The notes beneath the pieces are model-generated. The model was not told the DNA's origin. It saw nothing but the letters and a program-made list of their open reading frames with translations, and did not search any database. Made by a program: the position numbers and the translations under genes. A stretch of DNA of 64,000 nucleotides from Pseudomonas mosselii (GTDB lineage: Bacteria; Pseudomonadota; Gammaproteobacteria; Pseudomonadales; Pseudomonadaceae): NCBI RefSeq assembly GCF_019823065.1, contig NZ_CP081966.1:4929501-4993500 (forward strand). The letters are read 5' to 3'. Below, piece by piece: positions 2,204 to 7,424 of the stretch; within the stretch, counting starts at the first letter, position 1; every line of letters starts with the position of its first letter.

Positions 2204-2319
2204 TGGCCGGGGAAGCGGGCGCGTTAGAGAAAATCCATAATAGTGTTGCGACGGATGCTGCAGCCGACACCTTCTCGACCCGGTAAGATGTGCCTCTTTC
2301 ACATTGAATGCGGTCCCTC

Positions 2320-2949
2320 ATGTCCAACGACGCACCCATCGGCCCAGGCCGGCCCAAGGACCTGGCCAAGCGCGAGGCCATTCTCGAAGCCGCCAAGCAC
2401 CTGTTCCTCAGCCTTGGCTATGCCAACACCAGCATGGATGCGGTCGCGGCGGCGGCAGGTGTTTCCAAACTCACCGTCTACAGCCATTTCACCGACAAGC
2501 AGACGCTGTTCGGCGCGGCGGTCATGGCCACCTGCCAGAACCAGTTGCCTGACTTGATGTTCGAGTATCCGGAAGGGGTGGCGGTGGAGGATGTGCTGCT
2601 GAACATTGCCCGGGGGTTCCAGGCGCTCATCAGCAGTGACGAGGCGGTCAAGCTGAGTCGCCTGATCTTTGCCCTCGGCAGCCAGGATCCGGGGTTTGGG
2701 CAGTATTTCTACGAGGCGGGGCCGAAGCGGGTGATGGCCGGGATGGCGGCGCTGCTGCACTGTGTCGACCAGCAGGGGTTGCTGCGGATCGACAACCCGT
2801 TGCGGGCGGCGGAGCATTTCTTCTGCCTGGTGAAGGGGGCGCCGGATTATCGGTTGTTGCTGGGGTGCGCGCAGGCGCTGAGTGGGGATGAGGCTGAGGC
2901 GCATGTGCGGGAGGCTGTTGGGGTTTTTGTTCGGGCTTTTCGGGGGTAG
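2320..2949 (+). CDS. mexL: TetR-family repressor of the adjacent RND operon (MexL-like)
   Basis: The protein has 209 residues from the ATG at 2320. An ATG at 2308 would add MRSL; neither has a clear Shine-Dalgarno sequence, and 2320 is chosen because MSNDAP leads directly into the conserved GRPKDLAKREAILEAA start. The N-terminal TetR DNA-binding domain is clear, with helix-turn-helix GVSKLTVYSHFTDKQTLF at about residues 50-67, followed by a helical ligand/dimer domain. It diverges from the RND adaptor gene, the usual arrangement of a local efflux repressor. Its stop codon lies 49 bp before the IS256-type insertion, so the coding sequence is intact. Confidence 0.8.
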   Translation: MSNDAPIGPGRPKDLAKREAILEAAKHLFLSLGYANTSMDAVAAAAGVSKLTVYSHFTDKQTLFGAAVMATCQNQLPDLMFEYPEGVAVEDVLLNIARGFQALISSDEAVKLSRLIFALGSQDPGFGQYFYEAGPKRVMAGMAALLHCVDQQGLLRIDNPLRAAEHFFCLVKGAPDYRLLLGCAQALSGDEAEAHVREAVGVFVRAFRG

Positions 2950-2986
2950 TTCGGGTTCGGGTTCGGGGTGATTGTTTTGATTTTTT

Positions 2987-2998
2987 TATGCGCATTCG
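2987..2998. repeat. Outer left end of the disrupted palindromic element
   Basis: The 11-mer TATGCGCATTC at 2987-2997 reappears in inverted orientation at 6456-6466. In both places it lies just outside sequence that leads into the conserved block CACCTTTCCGCCC (4390 onward at left; reverse complement ending at 6433 at right). The IS256-type element has inserted at 2998/2999, inside this end. Confidence 0.55.
2991..2998. repeat. IS256-type target site duplication, left copy
   Basis: The octamer CGCATTCG directly abuts the left inverted repeat of the IS and is repeated exactly at 4361-4368 beside the right inverted repeat. Eight base pairs is a usual duplication length for the IS256 family. Confidence 0.9.
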
Positions 2999-4360
2999 GG
3001 AAGTGTCAGATTTTTTGTGTGCGGGCCGGTAACGGCCTGCCGTCAGGCAGGCCCTGACTTTCACCAGGTCGGCCTGATGAACCGATCTCCGTACAAAATC
3101 GCGAATTGATTCATCGCACTTTTCCAATCATGCGCCGCTGAGCCCCAGTTCGCCGTGATGTTTCGCAGCCCCAGCCAGATCAGCTTGGTAGCTGCGTCAT
3201 CGTTCGGGAAATGGCCTCGGGTCTTGATGATCTTGCGCAGCTGGGCATTGATACTCTCGATGGCGTTGGTGGTGTAGATCACTTTCCGGATGGCTGGTGG
3301 GAAGACAAAGAAGGGAATCACTCGATCCCAGGCGCGTCTCCAGGCCGCAACGACCGTTGGATACTGCTTGCCCCAGGGCCCGTTTTCAAACTCATCGAGT
3401 GCCTGCTCAGCCGCTTCGGCGTTGATGGCCTGGTAGATCGGCTTGAGCGCCTTGGCCAGTGCCCGCCGCTTGTCCCAGGCTGCAAAGTCCAGGCTGTTGC
3501 GGATCAGGTGCACGATGCACGTCTGCAGCGTCGTCTCTGGAAACACGGCGCTGAGAGCCTCTGGCATGCCTTTGAGGCCATCGGTCACGGCAATCAGCAC
3601 ATCCTCGACACCACGTGTCTTGAGATCGTTAAAGACCTTCATCCAGAACTTCGCACCCTCGGTGTTCTCGATCCAGATGCCCAAGATATCGCGCGTCCCG
3701 TCGGGTAGAACGCCCAGCGCCAAGTAAATGGCCTTGTTGCGCACCAAGCCTTCTTCGCGGATCTTCACCCGCAGTGCATCGAAGAAAATGACCGGGTACA
3801 TGGGCTCCAGTGGCCGCTGCTGCCACGCGCCAATTTCTTCCATGACCTCGTCTGTCACAGAGCTGATGAAGTCGGGTGAGACCTCTGTTCCATACTGCTC
3901 GGACAGAAAGGCTCGGATCTCTCTGACCGTCATGCCACGGGCGTACATGGCGATGATCTTGTCATCGAAACCGGTGTACCGCCGCTCATGCTTGGGGATG
4001 AGAATGGGCGCAAAACTGCCGTCTCGGTCACGAGGAATTTCCAGCCGCAGCGGGCCATCGCCGGTCAAAACCGTCTTGCCACTCTTGCCGTTACGCTGGT
4101 TGGTTTCATCCTCTGGGCGCTGCGCGCCCGGCGGATAACCCAGGTGGTGGCCAAGTTCGGCGTGCAGAGCGCGTTCGATCAAGGCCTTCTTGAACGCCGC
4201 AGAGGCATCCTCGATAGCCTCTGCGGTCATCAGGCCCTCACCGAACTGCTCCAGCAGCTCTTTGGGGATTTTGGGCAGGTCACGCAAGGGTTTCTTTTTG
4301 GTTGGCATACATGCACCTCTTACTCATGTTATGCCCGAACACAAAATTTCTGACACCCTC
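2999..4360 (-). mobile_element. IS256-family insertion sequence, complete, 1362 bp
   Basis: The element is bounded by imperfect inverted repeats: GGAAGTGTCAGATTTTTTGT at the left, and GAGGGTGTCAGAAATTTTGT read inward from the right end at 4360. It is flanked by an exact 8-bp duplication (CGCATTCG at 2991-2998 and 4361-4368). It carries one full-length transposase gene on the minus strand. Intact ends, an intact gene and an undecayed target duplication suggest a recent, possibly active insertion. It lies between mexL and the long inverted repeat and interrupts no gene. Confidence 0.92.
3061..4308 (-). CDS. IS256-family (mutator-type) transposase
   Basis: This is a full-length 415-residue DDE transposase. 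The catalytic triad fits Asp177 (VIFFDALR), Asp243 (AVTDGLKG) and Glu351 (TNAIESINAQLR), with the family signature CxxH at 264-267 (LQTCIVHLIRNS) between the second Asp and the Glu. The N-terminal part (about 1-150) is the DNA-binding and oligomerisation region. The gene fills nearly all of the 1362-bp element and has no frameshift, so the enzyme could be functional. Confidence 0.95.
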   Translation of the reverse strand: MPTKKKPLRDLPKIPKELLEQFGEGLMTAEAIEDASAAFKKALIERALHAELGHHLGYPPGAQRPEDETNQRNGKSGKTVLTGDGPLRLEIPRDRDGSFAPILIPKHERRYTGFDDKIIAMYARGMTVREIRAFLSEQYGTEVSPDFISSVTDEVMEEIGAWQQRPLEPMYPVIFFDALRVKIREEGLVRNKAIYLALGVLPDGTRDILGIWIENTEGAKFWMKVFNDLKTRGVEDVLIAVTDGLKGMPEALSAVFPETTLQTCIVHLIRNSLDFAAWDKRRALAKALKPIYQAINAEAAEQALDEFENGPWGKQYPTVVAAWRRAWDRVIPFFVFPPAIRKVIYTTNAIESINAQLRKIIKTRGHFPNDDAATKLIWLGLRNITANWGSAAHDWKSAMNQFAILYGDRFIRPTW

Positions 4361-4368
4361 CGCATTCG
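4361..4368. repeat. IS256-type target site duplication, right copy
   Basis: Exact copy of CGCATTCG at 2991-2998, placed immediately outside the right inverted repeat. Confidence 0.9.
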
Positions 4369-4389
4369 TAGAAGATAACGACATTTAGT

Positions 4390-4628
4390 CACCTTTCCGC
4401 CCTTACGGCGGCCTACTTTTGTCTTGGCAAAAGTAGGCAAAACCGTTCCGCTCCGTTCATCCGGCCCCTACGCTTCGCTTCGGGGTTCCCTCGCTCCGTT
4501 CTTGCTCCCGGGAGGACCGCGCTGAACGCCCCATCCTGGGGCGCAGCGCTTGACGGCCATCCATGGCCGTCACCTCCCTCCGCAAGAACTCCGCTCGGCC
4601 TCCTGAAGTCGCAATTGGCGGCGCCTGG
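4390..4628. repeat. Left arm of a long imperfect inverted repeat; no gene
   Basis: This arm pairs with 4839-5050 plus 6405-6433 read in reverse. Matching blocks in order are CACCTTTCCGCCCTTACGGC, a TACTTTTG...CAAAAGTA hairpin, a Lys/Arg-codon-poor GC-rich stretch with GGGAGGACCGCGC, GGGGCGCAGCGCTTGACGG, CACCTCCCTCCGCAAGA, CGGCCTCCTGAAGTCGC and GGCGGCGCCTGG. A small perfect hairpin sits at 4412-4437 (CCTACTTTTG, TCTTGG loop, CAAAAGTAGG). Short frames through here have no start signals or family features and are mirrored in the other arm, so they are not called as genes. It looks like a dispersed P. putida-type intergenic repeat. Confidence 0.75.
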
Positions 4629-4710
4629 ACTATCGCGCGCTTAGAAGCAAGAGCAAGAGCAAGAAATGCGAAGTTAGTTGTTTTACAGTTCATTATGCAT
4701 TGGCTATTCC

Positions 4711-4795
4711 AGCCCTTCCGCGGGGCGAGCCCGCTCCTACAGGATTATATATAACGTCGACTGTTGGGTGGGAGCGGGCTTGCCCCGCGATGCGA
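4711..4795. repeat. Divergent REP pair in the centre of the inverted repeat
   Basis: Two REP units in opposite orientation (core GCGGGGCGAGCCCGCTCCTA near 4720-4740, and GGGAGCGGGCTTGCCCCGCG near 4770-4789) lie in the 210-bp spacer (4629-4838) between the arms. They match the P. putida REP consensus seen elsewhere in this window. The rest of the spacer holds nothing recognisable. Confidence 0.7.
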
Positions 4796-4838
4796 TCGAA
4801 AGATTAATTAAGCTGCAACTAGCGACAGCTGCGCCAAC

Positions 4839-5050
4839 CCAGGCGCCGCCCGTAACTTCGCGACTTCAGGAGGCCGAACGGAGGTCTTGCGGAGGGAGGT
4901 GACGGGCATGGATGCCCGTCAAGCGCTGGGGCCCAGGATGGGCCCTGCAGCGCGGCCCTCCCGGGAGCAAGGCCGGAGTGAGGGAACCCGGAGCGAAGCG
5001 CAGGGCCGGATGAATGGAGCGCAACGGCTTTGGTTACTTTGGCCAAGACC
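4839..5050. repeat. Right arm of the long inverted repeat, interrupted by an IS110-type element; no gene
   Basis: This is the reverse-complement partner of 4390-4628, with mismatches and small indels: CCAGGCGCCGCC, GACTTCAGGAGGCCG, TCTTGCGGAGGGAGGTGACG, GGGCCCAGGATGGGCCCTGC and CCCTCCCGGGAGCAAG. It ends GGTTACTTTGGCCAAGACC at 5032-5050. The expected completion, AAGTAACCCGCCGTAAGGGC, is found only at 6405 onward, on the far side of the IS110-type element. Confidence 0.75.
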
Positions 5051-5305
5051 AATCTATGGTCACCCCATTTTTTGCAATACTGTTCATCAGATGGAATGGA
5101 TGGCTTGCTTCAATCTATCCGGCGTCTATTGGGCTCGCATCCCGCGCCACGATGAGCATTCGCACCTGGCGATCCTAACAAAGTAGGCGGCTTCCAAGAG
5201 CCAATTGGTCGTTCAGGATCATCGCCAGGCCGATCGGCCGTTTATTTCATCTGTTGTTCAGCTATCGCAAAACCTGATGGTGAAACTCGGTGCAGCACAA
5301 CGGGG
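5051..5305 (-). ncRNA. Candidate bridge RNA region of the IS110-type element
   Basis: This 255-bp non-coding end lies 3' of the recombinase, where IS1111-subgroup elements encode the bridge RNA that selects target and donor DNA. Within it, ACAAAGTAGG (5178-5187) and CCAAGAG (5194-5200) closely resemble the two sides of the insertion target, AAAAGTA-R and CCAAGAC. This is what target-guide loops might look like. RNA folding and transcription could not be tested, so the exact RNA ends are unknown. The small frames on either strand here lack start signals. Confidence 0.4.
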
Positions 5306-6331
5306 TCAGGCGTTTATCGCGTCTGGCTCCGTTTTATATTGCGTGTGCCGAGTGGCAATGGCCCACGCAATGCGTGCCAGTTTGTTGGCCAACGCGCAGG
5401 CCACCACATTGGAGTGACGTCGCGCGAGCAATGAACGCACCCAATCGGCCAATGGGCCTTTCTGATACTTCAGGCGAAGCATGTAGACCCGTGCGCACAG
5501 CACCAGCAAATGCCGAAGGTTCTTGTCGCCACGCTTGCTGATCCCCAGCAAAGCTGGCCTACCACCAGTGCTGTACTGGCGGGGCACCAGACCTACAGAG
5601 GCCGCAAAGTCCCGGCTACTGCCGTACTGCCGAGCATCTCCCATTTCTACAGCCAGCAGGCTGGCGGTGATCGGCCCAACACACGGCATGCTCAGCAAAC
5701 GACTGCCTAGATCATCGTCAGCCAGTTGGCTCTCCAGCTCTTTGTCCAACACCTTGATCTGCTCGCTCAAGTAGACGAAATGATCATGCAGGCGCTGCTG
5801 TAATGCGACGAGCCGTATTGGCAGGTCGTGCTCTTCAAGCACCGAAGCAAGGCGTTTGACCACTGCCAATCCGGTCGGCAGGCTGACACCGAATTCGAGC
5901 AGGAACCCATGCATCTGGTTCACCGTCTTGGTTCGGTCGCGGATCAATGATTCACGCATCCGATGAGAAACAGAGAGCGTTTGCTGCTCAGGCGATTTTG
6001 GCGTCACAAAGCGCATGGAGGGTCGGGAAGCGGCTTCGCAGATGGCTTGCGCATCGACGAAGTCATTCTTGTTGCTCTTGACGAAAGGTTTAACGAACTG
6101 CGGCGAGATCAGCTTGGCCTCATGATCCATCGCTTTGATTTCTCGCGCCAGGCAGTGTGAACCGGCACAGGCCTCCATCACTACCGTGCAAGGGGGATGA
6201 TTGGCCAGAAACCGCATCATCTGCTGCCTTGAGCACTTCTTGCGCATTACCTCTTTGCCGAACTTGTCCTGGGCGTGCAGGTGGAAGGTATGTTTACCAA
6301 TGTCGATGCCGATCAGGGTCACGCTGCTCAT
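5306..6331 (-). CDS. IS110-family transposase (DEDD recombinase)
   Basis: The protein has 341 residues from the ATG at 6331 (MSSVTLIGIDIGKHTF), preceded by GGAG on the coding strand. The frame stays open upstream for 50 codons, but that stretch crosses the IS end. The N-terminal RuvC-like DEDD domain shows Asp10 (GIDIGK), Glu53 (VVMEACAGSH), Asp90 and Asp93 (NKNDFVDAQAI). The C-terminal Tnp_20 domain (about 205-295) has the helix-hairpin CVGPITA and RQYSTGG with the expected catalytic Ser254. The gene is full length and undamaged, so the element may be mobile. Confidence 0.95.
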   Translation of the reverse strand: MSSVTLIGIDIGKHTFHLHAQDKFGKEVMRKKCSRQQMMRFLANHPPCTVVMEACAGSHCLAREIKAMDHEAKLISPQFVKPFVKSNKNDFVDAQAICEAASRPSMRFVTPKSPEQQTLSVSHRMRESLIRDRTKTVNQMHGFLLEFGVSLPTGLAVVKRLASVLEEHDLPIRLVALQQRLHDHFVYLSEQIKVLDKELESQLADDDLGSRLLSMPCVGPITASLLAVEMGDARQYGSSRDFAASVGLVPRQYSTGGRPALLGISKRGDKNLRHLLVLCARVYMLRLKYQKGPLADWVRSLLARRHSNVVACALANKLARIAWAIATRHTQYKTEPDAINA

Positions 6332-6404
6332 GATGACGGTCTCCGAAGTAAAAGCACCCTGCGAAAGCGTACGCCTCGCAGGGTGCCGGGGTGACCATCT
6401 CATT

Positions 6405-6466
6405 AAGTAACCCGCCGTAAGGGCGGAAAGGTGAATAAGCGTCGACATCACAAATGAATGCGCATA
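6405..6466. repeat. Outer end of the interrupted right arm
   Basis: CCGCCGTAAGGGCGGAAAGGTG (6412-6433) is the exact reverse complement of 4390-4411, and the inverted TATGCGCATTC copy is at 6456-6466. Together with 2987-2998, 4369-4628 and 4839-5050 this rebuilds a palindromic element of about 756 bp. Confidence 0.65.
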
Positions 6467-6492: not shown

Positions 6493-6540
6493 AACTAACG
6501 AACTAACGAACTAACGAACTAACGAACTAACGAACTAACC
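6493..6540. repeat. Tandem octamer repeat, AACTAACG, six copies
   Basis: There are five perfect copies and one final copy ending in C instead of G, in direct array. The array ends 5 bp past the rsmJ stop codon (6546-6548) and outside the palindromic element. No coding or promoter role is visible. Such octamers can vary in number by replication slippage. Confidence 0.9.
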
Positions 6541-6545
6541 AACAG

Positions 6546-7328
6546 TCAAGCCTTCAAAGCCTTCTTGGGATATATATCGTACCGACTCGACTTCCCCTCC
6601 AGACTATGACTCGGCTTGGCCCCCTCGATAATAGGCGCCTTGCGCGGCCGCTTGACCACCACCCGATGCGTGGCCAACGCCAAAGCCGCCTCGAGCAAAG
6701 CCGGTGCATCCAGGTCATCACCGACCAAAGGCCGAAACACCCGCATTTCCTTCTTCACCAACGCGCTCTTGTCCCGATGCGGAAACATCGGATCCAGGTA
6801 GATCACCTGTGGCGCCTCCCCCTCCCAAGCCCGCATCCGCTCGATCGCATTACCAGTCAACAACCGCATGCGCGCAACGATCGGAGCAATCTCCTCATCG
6901 CCACGCGCCCGCACCAGACCATCCTCCAGCAGCGCGGCAATCAACGGCTGACGCTCGATCAGGGTCATCTGGCAACCCAGGCTGGCCAGTACGAACGCAT
7001 CCTTGCCCAACCCCGCCGTAGCATCGAGCACCTGCGGCCGCACGCCCTGGGCGATGCCCACGGCCTTGGCGATCATCTGCCCGTTGCCACCGCCGTACAA
7101 CCGCCGGTGCGCCGCCTGCCCCTCGACGAAATCCACCCGCACCGGCCCCGGCGCCTGCGGCCCGAGCTGCTGGATCTGCAGCCCTTCGTCCCCCAGCTGC
7201 ACGGCGAATTCCGCGGCTTCATCGACCAACGGCAAGCCCAGCCGCTCGGCCCATGCCTCGGCCTGCGCCTGGAACTGCGGGGCCAGTGCCTCGACCCTGA
7301 TACCTGCGCCTTGCTGCTGCTCTACCAT
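6546..7328 (-). CDS. rsmJ: 16S rRNA (guanine1516-N2)-methyltransferase RsmJ
   Basis: This is a 260-residue SAM-dependent methyltransferase that modifies G1516 of 16S rRNA. The SAM-binding motif is [19 protein letters not shown] and the catalytic-type motif is YLDPMFPHR. RsmJ-specific stretches [18 protein letters not shown] and [17 protein letters not shown] are present. The start is placed at the ATG at 7328 (MVEQQQG), with GGGAACGG just upstream. An in-frame GTG at 7340 would add four residues. The gene stands alone, with the IS-rich island downstream and an unknown protein gene divergent upstream. Confidence 0.9.
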
Positions 7329-7424
7329 CCGTTCCCGCACTCGAAAAAAATTAATGAAACCCCGGCCAGAGCCGATACAGGCAATATCCCGCTATTCTGC
7401 CAGAGCTCAACGTCCGCGACTGCC

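Follow-up and report, generated by a model that had tools for sequence, protein, structure and literature searches.

We describe a family of long, non-coding palindromic repeats in Pseudomonas in which every copy listed on six complete chromosomes faces according to its replication arm: on five of them, listed copies before dif all lie on the minus strand and those after it all on the plus strand, the switch occurring at each genome's own dif, and on the sixth all four fit once dif and origin are taken into account. The starting point was a 64,000-nt stretch of the Pseudomonas mosselii chromosome (assembly GCF_019823065.1, contig NZ_CP081966.1, positions 4,929,501 to 4,993,500), hereafter the window, which carries one member of the family interrupted by two insertion sequences (ISs). 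Direction is not expected of a palindrome; that about a hundred copies conform to the replication arms connects the biology of repeats with chromosome replication. The rule of direction, like the rearrangements found at copies and the concerted evolution of the family, goes beyond what could be read from the window's sequence alone. Together, the facts point to an old, chromosome-bound, slowly moving and recombining non-coding repeat whose strand is tied to replication.

Direction of the copies relative to replication

When the window's own genome (G000; G and L numbers are labels for genomes and fetched loci) was searched with window positions 4390-5050, 98 matches were listed, which were grouped into at least 22 copies of a non-coding element. 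Its two arms, A and B, are about 300 bp each, about 86% complementary and have defined outer and inner tips. Thirteen copies (type I) have the layout of the window, namely outer tip, arm A, inner tip, centre, inner tip, arm B and outer tip, some with deletions. Six (type II) are inside-out with the inner tips on the outside, and three are shortened to inner parts, one of them seen in the genome search only. Inverted repeats of about 55 bp form the outer tips and are common to the copies, and the outer ends (TTTTGA..TATGCGCATTC..TCACCTTTCCGCC) recur in most of the 20 fetched G000 loci, L027 and L028 excepted. Many copy boundaries are short tandem repeats of 3-10 bp, with a unit that differs by locus.

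Of 199 genomes sampled from the genus, 83 (G000 counted) contained the family at E<=1e-10, the other 116 giving no match, and the exact 23-base inner tip occurred in 45 stretches, every one a Pseudomonas record. No family match was found in the plasmid and phage collections searched, outside which the records of near relatives possibly lie, and no tRNA association at the 20 loci where it was sought. Four draft contigs of G025 (C38, C67, C23 and C36; L171 and L179-L181) end inside or just past an element; assemblies therefore seem to break there, and drafts may understate the number of copies.

The two arms are not alike, the difference being clearest at the inner tips, and this gives every copy a strand and hence a direction. 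Among the matches listed, to which all direction counts refer, the rule was obeyed by 99 of 99 copies on the six complete chromosomes, and by 80 of 80 when inner tips were used. Five chromosomes contribute 95 of 95 (G000, 22; G131, 27; G125, 20; G112, 19; G211, 7). In G000, where dif lies at 3.04 Mb, ten listed copies before dif are '-' and twelve after it are '+'. G125 follows the rule despite an off-centre dif, its GC-skew origin lying at 0.45-0.6 Mb; the chromosome starts encode DnaA in G000, G131 and G211, and dnaN lies at about 20 kb in G112. The sixth chromosome, G184, is an apparent counterexample, with '-' copies at 0.20, 0.63 and 5.22 Mb and a '+' copy at 2.72 Mb, but with dif at 1.50 Mb and the skew origin at 4.3-4.5 Mb all four fit. 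A scripted inner-tip check of 60 of the 77 listed copies outside G000 (the other 17 are G131 copies) gave 59 agreements, no disagreement and one tipless copy, that of G184 at 0.20 Mb; within G000, inner tips agreed at 21 of 21 loci. The sole copy of G086 at E<=1e-30 (G086:C1:1251248-1252033) has two A-type arms; being symmetric and directionless, it was left out of the counts.

The local GC skew of short flanks agrees with copy direction in 33 of 42 named Pseudomonas stretches (p 0.0004; three of 45 were left out for short flanks) and at 21 of 25 loci of the draft genome G123 (p 0.012; L158 and L168, with no A tip, were left out). Copies in G123 are concordant within each of contigs C2, C3, C4 and C5. 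Contig C1 holds nine '-' copies and one '+' copy, L146, the only one found to oppose its neighbours. It sits in a block of about 0.3 Mb (G123:C1, about 1.6-1.85 Mb; L300-L308) with reversed GC skew and agrees with that local skew; the block would be either a recent within-arm inversion that carried the copy along or an assembly or scaffold error. Because copies in different genomes descend in part from common ancestors, they do not constitute independent trials. Gene layout was rejected as a cause of the direction: at 14 loci (the window and 13 others) with a Pfam-supported gene on each side, open reading frames (ORFs) being called by a simple composition score and L013 left out for a 2-kb gap, seven arrangements were convergent, seven tandem and none divergent, and they did not track direction.

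The window copy, its sites in relatives and its insertion sequences

The initial annotation had read the window locus as a single old palindrome broken by an IS256-type and an IS110-type element, and this reading stands. The former is bounded by an 8-bp duplication, CGCATTCG, and matches Transposase_mut (E 3.2e-123), and the latter matches DEDD_Tnp_IS110 and Transposase_20. Once both are removed, 2987-2998, 4369-5050 and 6405-6466 (12+682+62) form an imperfect palindrome of 756 bp, with the divergent pair (91%) of repetitive extragenic palindromic (REP) sequences in its centre. Inverted repeats in the window pair 4480-4612 with 4860-4992 (133 nt, 89%), 4361-4418 with 6405-6462 (58 nt, 79%) and 4418-4467 with 5003-5052 (50 nt, 86%). 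An uninterrupted full copy (L012:3000-3850) has a folding energy of -553 kcal/mol, the mean of 20 shuffles being -317 (z -34.7), and this, with the same ends in most of the 20 G000 loci, places the palindrome far from chance. The parts of the locus are collected in the table.

Table. Features of the palindrome locus and its flanks, in window coordinates
Feature	Position	Strand	Remark
TetR-type regulator gene, left flank	2308..2949	+	converges on methyltransferase gene
GGTTCG-like short tandem repeat, A-side outer boundary	2950..2968	.	read from sequence
Outer end of arm A, first piece (TATGCGCATTCG)	2987..2998	+	severed by IS256-type element
IS256-type IS	2999..4360	-	transposase ORF 3061-4308; target duplication 2991-2998/4361-4368
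Remaining outer tip of arm A	4369..4412	+	ends in hairpin CCGCCCTTACGGCGG
Arm A	4390..4655	+
Rfam TwoAYGGAY match in arm A, sub-threshold	4515..4574	-	40.3 bits, gathering 43
Inner tip of arm A (GGACTATCGCGCGCTTAGAAGC)	4623..4648	+	mark of element's direction
AAGAGC short hexamer repeats, inner end of arm A	4649..4666	+	read from sequence
Inverted REP pair in centre	4719..4789	.	4719-4740 / 4768-4789
Inner tip of arm B	4808..4841	-
Arm B, inner part	4808..5050	-	interrupted by IS110-type element
Rfam TwoAYGGAY match in arm B, sub-threshold	4898..4957	+	39.6 bits
IS110-family IS, IS1111 layout, in arm hairpin	5051..6404	-	transposase ORF ~5306-6331; non-coding 5051-5305 downstream
Outer part of arm B	6405..6466	-	hairpin 6412-6433; end GAATGCGCATA 6456-6466
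8-bp tandem repeat AACTAACG, B-side outer boundary	6493..6540	+
S-adenosylmethionine (SAM)-dependent methyltransferase gene, right flank	6546..7340	-	Pfam SAM_MT; presumably rsmJ

The same annotation had suggested that the palindrome is an element in its own right or a preferred landing site, and both proposals were upheld, the former without implying present-day movement. The palindrome with these ends occurs in other genomes, as discrete copies with shared ends. At the window's own site, G123 carries an intact, uninterrupted ortholog (L155), and G024 has the same gene pair only 122 bp apart, without the element. The pair of TetR-type and methyltransferase genes was found in 26 of 29 relatives with the locus fetched, plus one weak match, and in G025 the methyltransferase side also bears a copy (L058, L177). 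Where G123 carries copy L152, about 175 bp of other sequence occupies the orthologous place in G024, which lacks the element yet is not a sharp empty site. For the G000 copy L024, the two flanks are separated by 11 kb in G123, and no family match is listed in that interval.

As a landing site, the palindrome has received three IS families, the IS110-type at one position and the IS256-type at varied ones. All eight IS110-type copies in G000 (seven intact, one split by an IS256) occupy the same position of the arm. Of 16 IS256-type copies in G000 (14 intact, one partial, one split; a 45-base match was excluded), seven are inserted in a family member or immediately next to one, at varying points (L038, L041, L045, L047, L048, L050 and L051), that of L041 being inside the IS110 of a copy, that of L048 in an ends-only variant and that of L051 25 bp outside a tip. 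With family DNA estimated at 28 kb, the binomial probability of this clustering is 4e-13 over the genome as a whole; it becomes 8e-7 on the assumption that insertions could enter intergenic DNA alone, taken as 750 kb. Two further IS256-type copies (L043 and L046) have target duplications that adjoin REP-like sequences (GCGGGGCAAG). An IS3-type element (orfA/orfB) occurs in nine of 27 fetched G123 copies (L143, L144, L145, L147, L148, L157, L161, L162 and L165); the junction read in L161 places it in the tip hairpin loop GCCCTTAC.

The ends-only variant, at about 4.203 Mb in G000 (near C1:4203120-4204670; L048, L193 and L196), consists of the two outer tips enclosing a short core of unrelated sequence. 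In these loci and at the right end of L016 a different short palindromic core starts GGCCAGCCCTTTCAAGG, as if tips and cores were exchangeable.

The IS110-type element has about 255 nt of non-coding sequence downstream of its transposase and subterminal ends ATGGTCACCCC and GGGGTGACCAT; it thereby agrees with the IS1111 group, which a downstream non-coding region and subterminal inverted repeats define (PMC11187229). Within the non-coding region, 5180-5191 resembles the arm target at 4408-4419 (12 nt, 92%), and this near copy may be regarded as a candidate guide of the seekRNA kind, a suggestion only. The palindrome is a natural target, used repeatedly, for a member of the programmable IS110 family.

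Exchange between copies and explanations of their direction

For REARRANGEMENTS at copies, the flanks of G000 copies were matched against 27 G123 loci, an approach in which only junctions at copies are visible. Both flanks were traced for nine of the 13 type I loci, one flank for two (L009, whose left flank is very short, and L018) and neither for two. Four of the nine are collinear with G123 (the window, L011, L012 and L017), and in the other five (L014, L015, L016, L019 and L022) the flanks sit at two different G123 copies. The eight type II or shortened loci comprise four collinear ones and four whose matches were weak or absent. L019 and L022 are reciprocally exchanged relative to L150/L151 of G123 and L182/L172 of G025, and the window's own flanks sit at two different copies in G025. 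G123 joins L014 to L016 (2.79/3.52 Mb) and L015 to L018 (2.75/3.56 Mb), pairs that are symmetric about the midpoint of the chromosome (3.14 Mb) and less so about dif at 3.04 Mb. Homologous recombination between copies would be the simplest reading of these rejoined flanks, and the family is a concrete substrate for chromosome shuffling. Shuffling in P. fluorescens has been noted as not flanked by rRNA, tRNA or known IS (PMC2718517).

Mean identity of arm A is 0.902 within G000, 0.902 between G000 and G123, 0.705 between G000 and G025 and 0.967 within G025 (three arms); for arm B the values are 0.946, 0.953, 0.717 and 0.992 (four arms within G025), from 49 and 50 arms in all. The ortholog is the closest relative in just two of seven pairs for arm A and one of seven for arm B. 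Judged from these comparisons, the copies evolve in concert, their sequences being homogenised. Arms A and B co-vary within a locus in the G000 type I copies (10 of 5000 permutations) and in none of the other three sets. As evidence for a structured RNA, local co-evolution of the arms was therefore rejected; an unstratified version looked stronger but mixed the two layouts.

As to what sets the direction, we favour, tentatively, replication-coupled single-strand copying of a chromosome-resident non-coding repeat. Each copy would receive its direction at its formation, since a trans-acting enzyme would copy or insert the element in single-stranded form at the lagging-strand template, much as happens with IS200/IS605-type and REP/REPIN (REP doublet forming hairpin) elements. 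Recombination between copies on opposite replication arms would give inversions that keep direction and would even out sequences, and the long hairpin would attract insertion sequences, with a fixed target for the IS1111-type element. Enzymes of the IS200/IS605 type have been described as using the lagging strand (PMC6006769), and an insertion direction that follows replication, as expected of such elements, is what the listed copies and their inner tips display. We prefer single-strand copying because copies without a traced ortholog obey the rule (L010, L013, L021, L024, L025 and L026, with no strong trace among G123's fetched copies, already follow it) and because REP-type and IS200/IS605 precedents exist. 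Several observations weigh against it. No Y1/HUH transposase was found beside the copies in a Pfam scan of 40 flanking ORFs at 20 loci, six of the 40 having no Pfam match and the rest of the genome not being searched. No clean insertion boundary was obtained, many flanks being tandem repeats, and the arms exceed REPs in length about tenfold. Whole-arm matching was mixed in 14 of 60 refetched loci, since arms A and B cross-match; only the tips decide, and one locus is tipless. The restriction of A/B co-variation to one set counts here as well, and we know of no published single-strand element described as exceptionless in direction.

Nearly as good is a reading in which the copies have a directional job on the chromosome, as a polar fork or segregation signal with the logic of Ter sites or FtsK guides, and selection purges those that face the wrong way; we regard it as possible, if doubtful. 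Ter and Rtp sites are likewise not invertible (PMC5993296), and here too all sites face the terminus alike; a barrier of the Ter type would also be expected to stop forks arriving from one side by means of a bound protein. Such a job would suit the absence of exceptions among 99 listed copies with a switch at dif, the lack of plasmid or phage matches, the A/B-distinct inner tips still recognisable in G025, where arms are only about 70% identical, and the finding that no copy listed in G000 lies within 0.5 Mb of dnaA. It fits less well with the 116 genomes that gave no match, and with L146, which, if the assembly is right, indicates that a turned copy may be tolerated; moreover, no protein is known to bind the element. 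Neither GGGNAGGG, the octamer of the FtsK orienting polar sequences (KOPS), nor a Chi-like octamer occurs on either strand of 4390-5050, and identity with KOPS or the architecture imparting sequences (AIMS) was accordingly rejected. Carried further, the palindromes might be a directional chromosome-organising element, with up to about 27 sites per chromosome, that tells the replication or segregation machinery where the terminus lies, is kept alike by exchange and provides inversion points that preserve polarity, a proposal that we consider slightly more doubtful.

It is also conceivable, though improbable, that recombination between copies is frequent and that only arrangements inverting across opposite replication arms survive, with direction as a by-product. 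The five of nine both-flank type I copies split between two G123 copies and the exchange suggested by concerted evolution would agree with such a filter, as would the counter-selection of within-arm inversions (PMC5993296) and the symmetric rearrangements of P. syringae pv. actinidiae (PMC6053426). However, the IS256-type copies of G000, which are longer and near-identical, are directionless (five '+' and six '-' left of dif, four '+' and one '-' right of it), though they may be young, and a right-facing copy would still have direct partners on its own arm, so that the difference in cost should be modest. Least probable, in our view, is an ordinary miniature inverted-repeat transposable element (MITE) moved by a double-strand cut-and-paste transposase, its direction accidental or inherited. 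The outer tips shared as inverted repeats, and a variant with the same tips around another core, are what such an element would have. On the other hand, no target duplication of the element was recognised (tandem repeats occupy many boundaries, and the G024 site has no sharp edge), no autonomous partner appeared among the 40 flanking ORFs scanned, no plasmid match was found, and the directional rule cannot arise by accident.

Comparison with known systems

In the literature covered, by titles and abstract openings and with subscription papers mostly outside, no report of directional long palindromes in Pseudomonas was found. The arms resemble the Rfam TwoAYGGAY motif (RF01731), best in arm B of L023 (L023:3581-3640, minus strand; 43.7 bits against a cut-off of 43). 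Identity with this RNA was rejected, since that was the one match above threshold in eight loci and covers a partial model (47-111 of 168); moreover, both arms match on opposite strands and the arm middle is different in G025. The motif is listed for gamma-proteobacteria among others (PMC2864571) and may be partly derived from such repeats.

With AIMS/KOPS and Ter sites the family has in common a direction that follows the replication arms (PMC5993296); as described there, those are octamers and short protein-binding sites, whereas here a 0.75-kb palindrome lacks KOPS. The IS110-type insertions recall ISPa11 (IS1111 group) and ISPpu9/ISPpu10, IS110-family elements that occupy one spot of a hairpin repeat and have a downstream non-coding region (PMC1525189, PMC11187229, PMC8450116); in those accounts the target is a REP, and here it is the arm hairpin of a long palindrome. 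In P. fluorescens, repeats were sought that might explain genome shuffling, and the large intergenic repeats R200 (320 bp) and R26 (352 bp) were reported, several families showing a tail-to-tail bias (PMC2718517). Unit size and intergenic location are similar to those of the present family, but the accessible description, the basis of this comparison, includes neither a direction for R200 and R26 nor a two-arm palindrome.

In general character the family resembles REP, REPIN and bacterial interspersed mosaic elements (BIMEs) with their REP-associated tyrosine transposases (RAYTs), which are likewise intergenic, hairpin-forming, multicopy, found in Pseudomonas and targets of ISs. Unlike a REPIN, the palindrome has arms of about 300 bp instead of REPs of 20-40 nt, is not a REP doublet, with an ordinary REP pair only in its centre, and has two unlike arms and an exceptionless direction in the complete chromosomes tested, with no RAYT link among the 40 flanking ORFs. 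In SBW25, tandem arrays of REPs on one side of the chromosome are oriented opposite to those on the other (PMC3116915), and, as reported there, these arrays are the nearest directional precedent that we found for the palindrome family.

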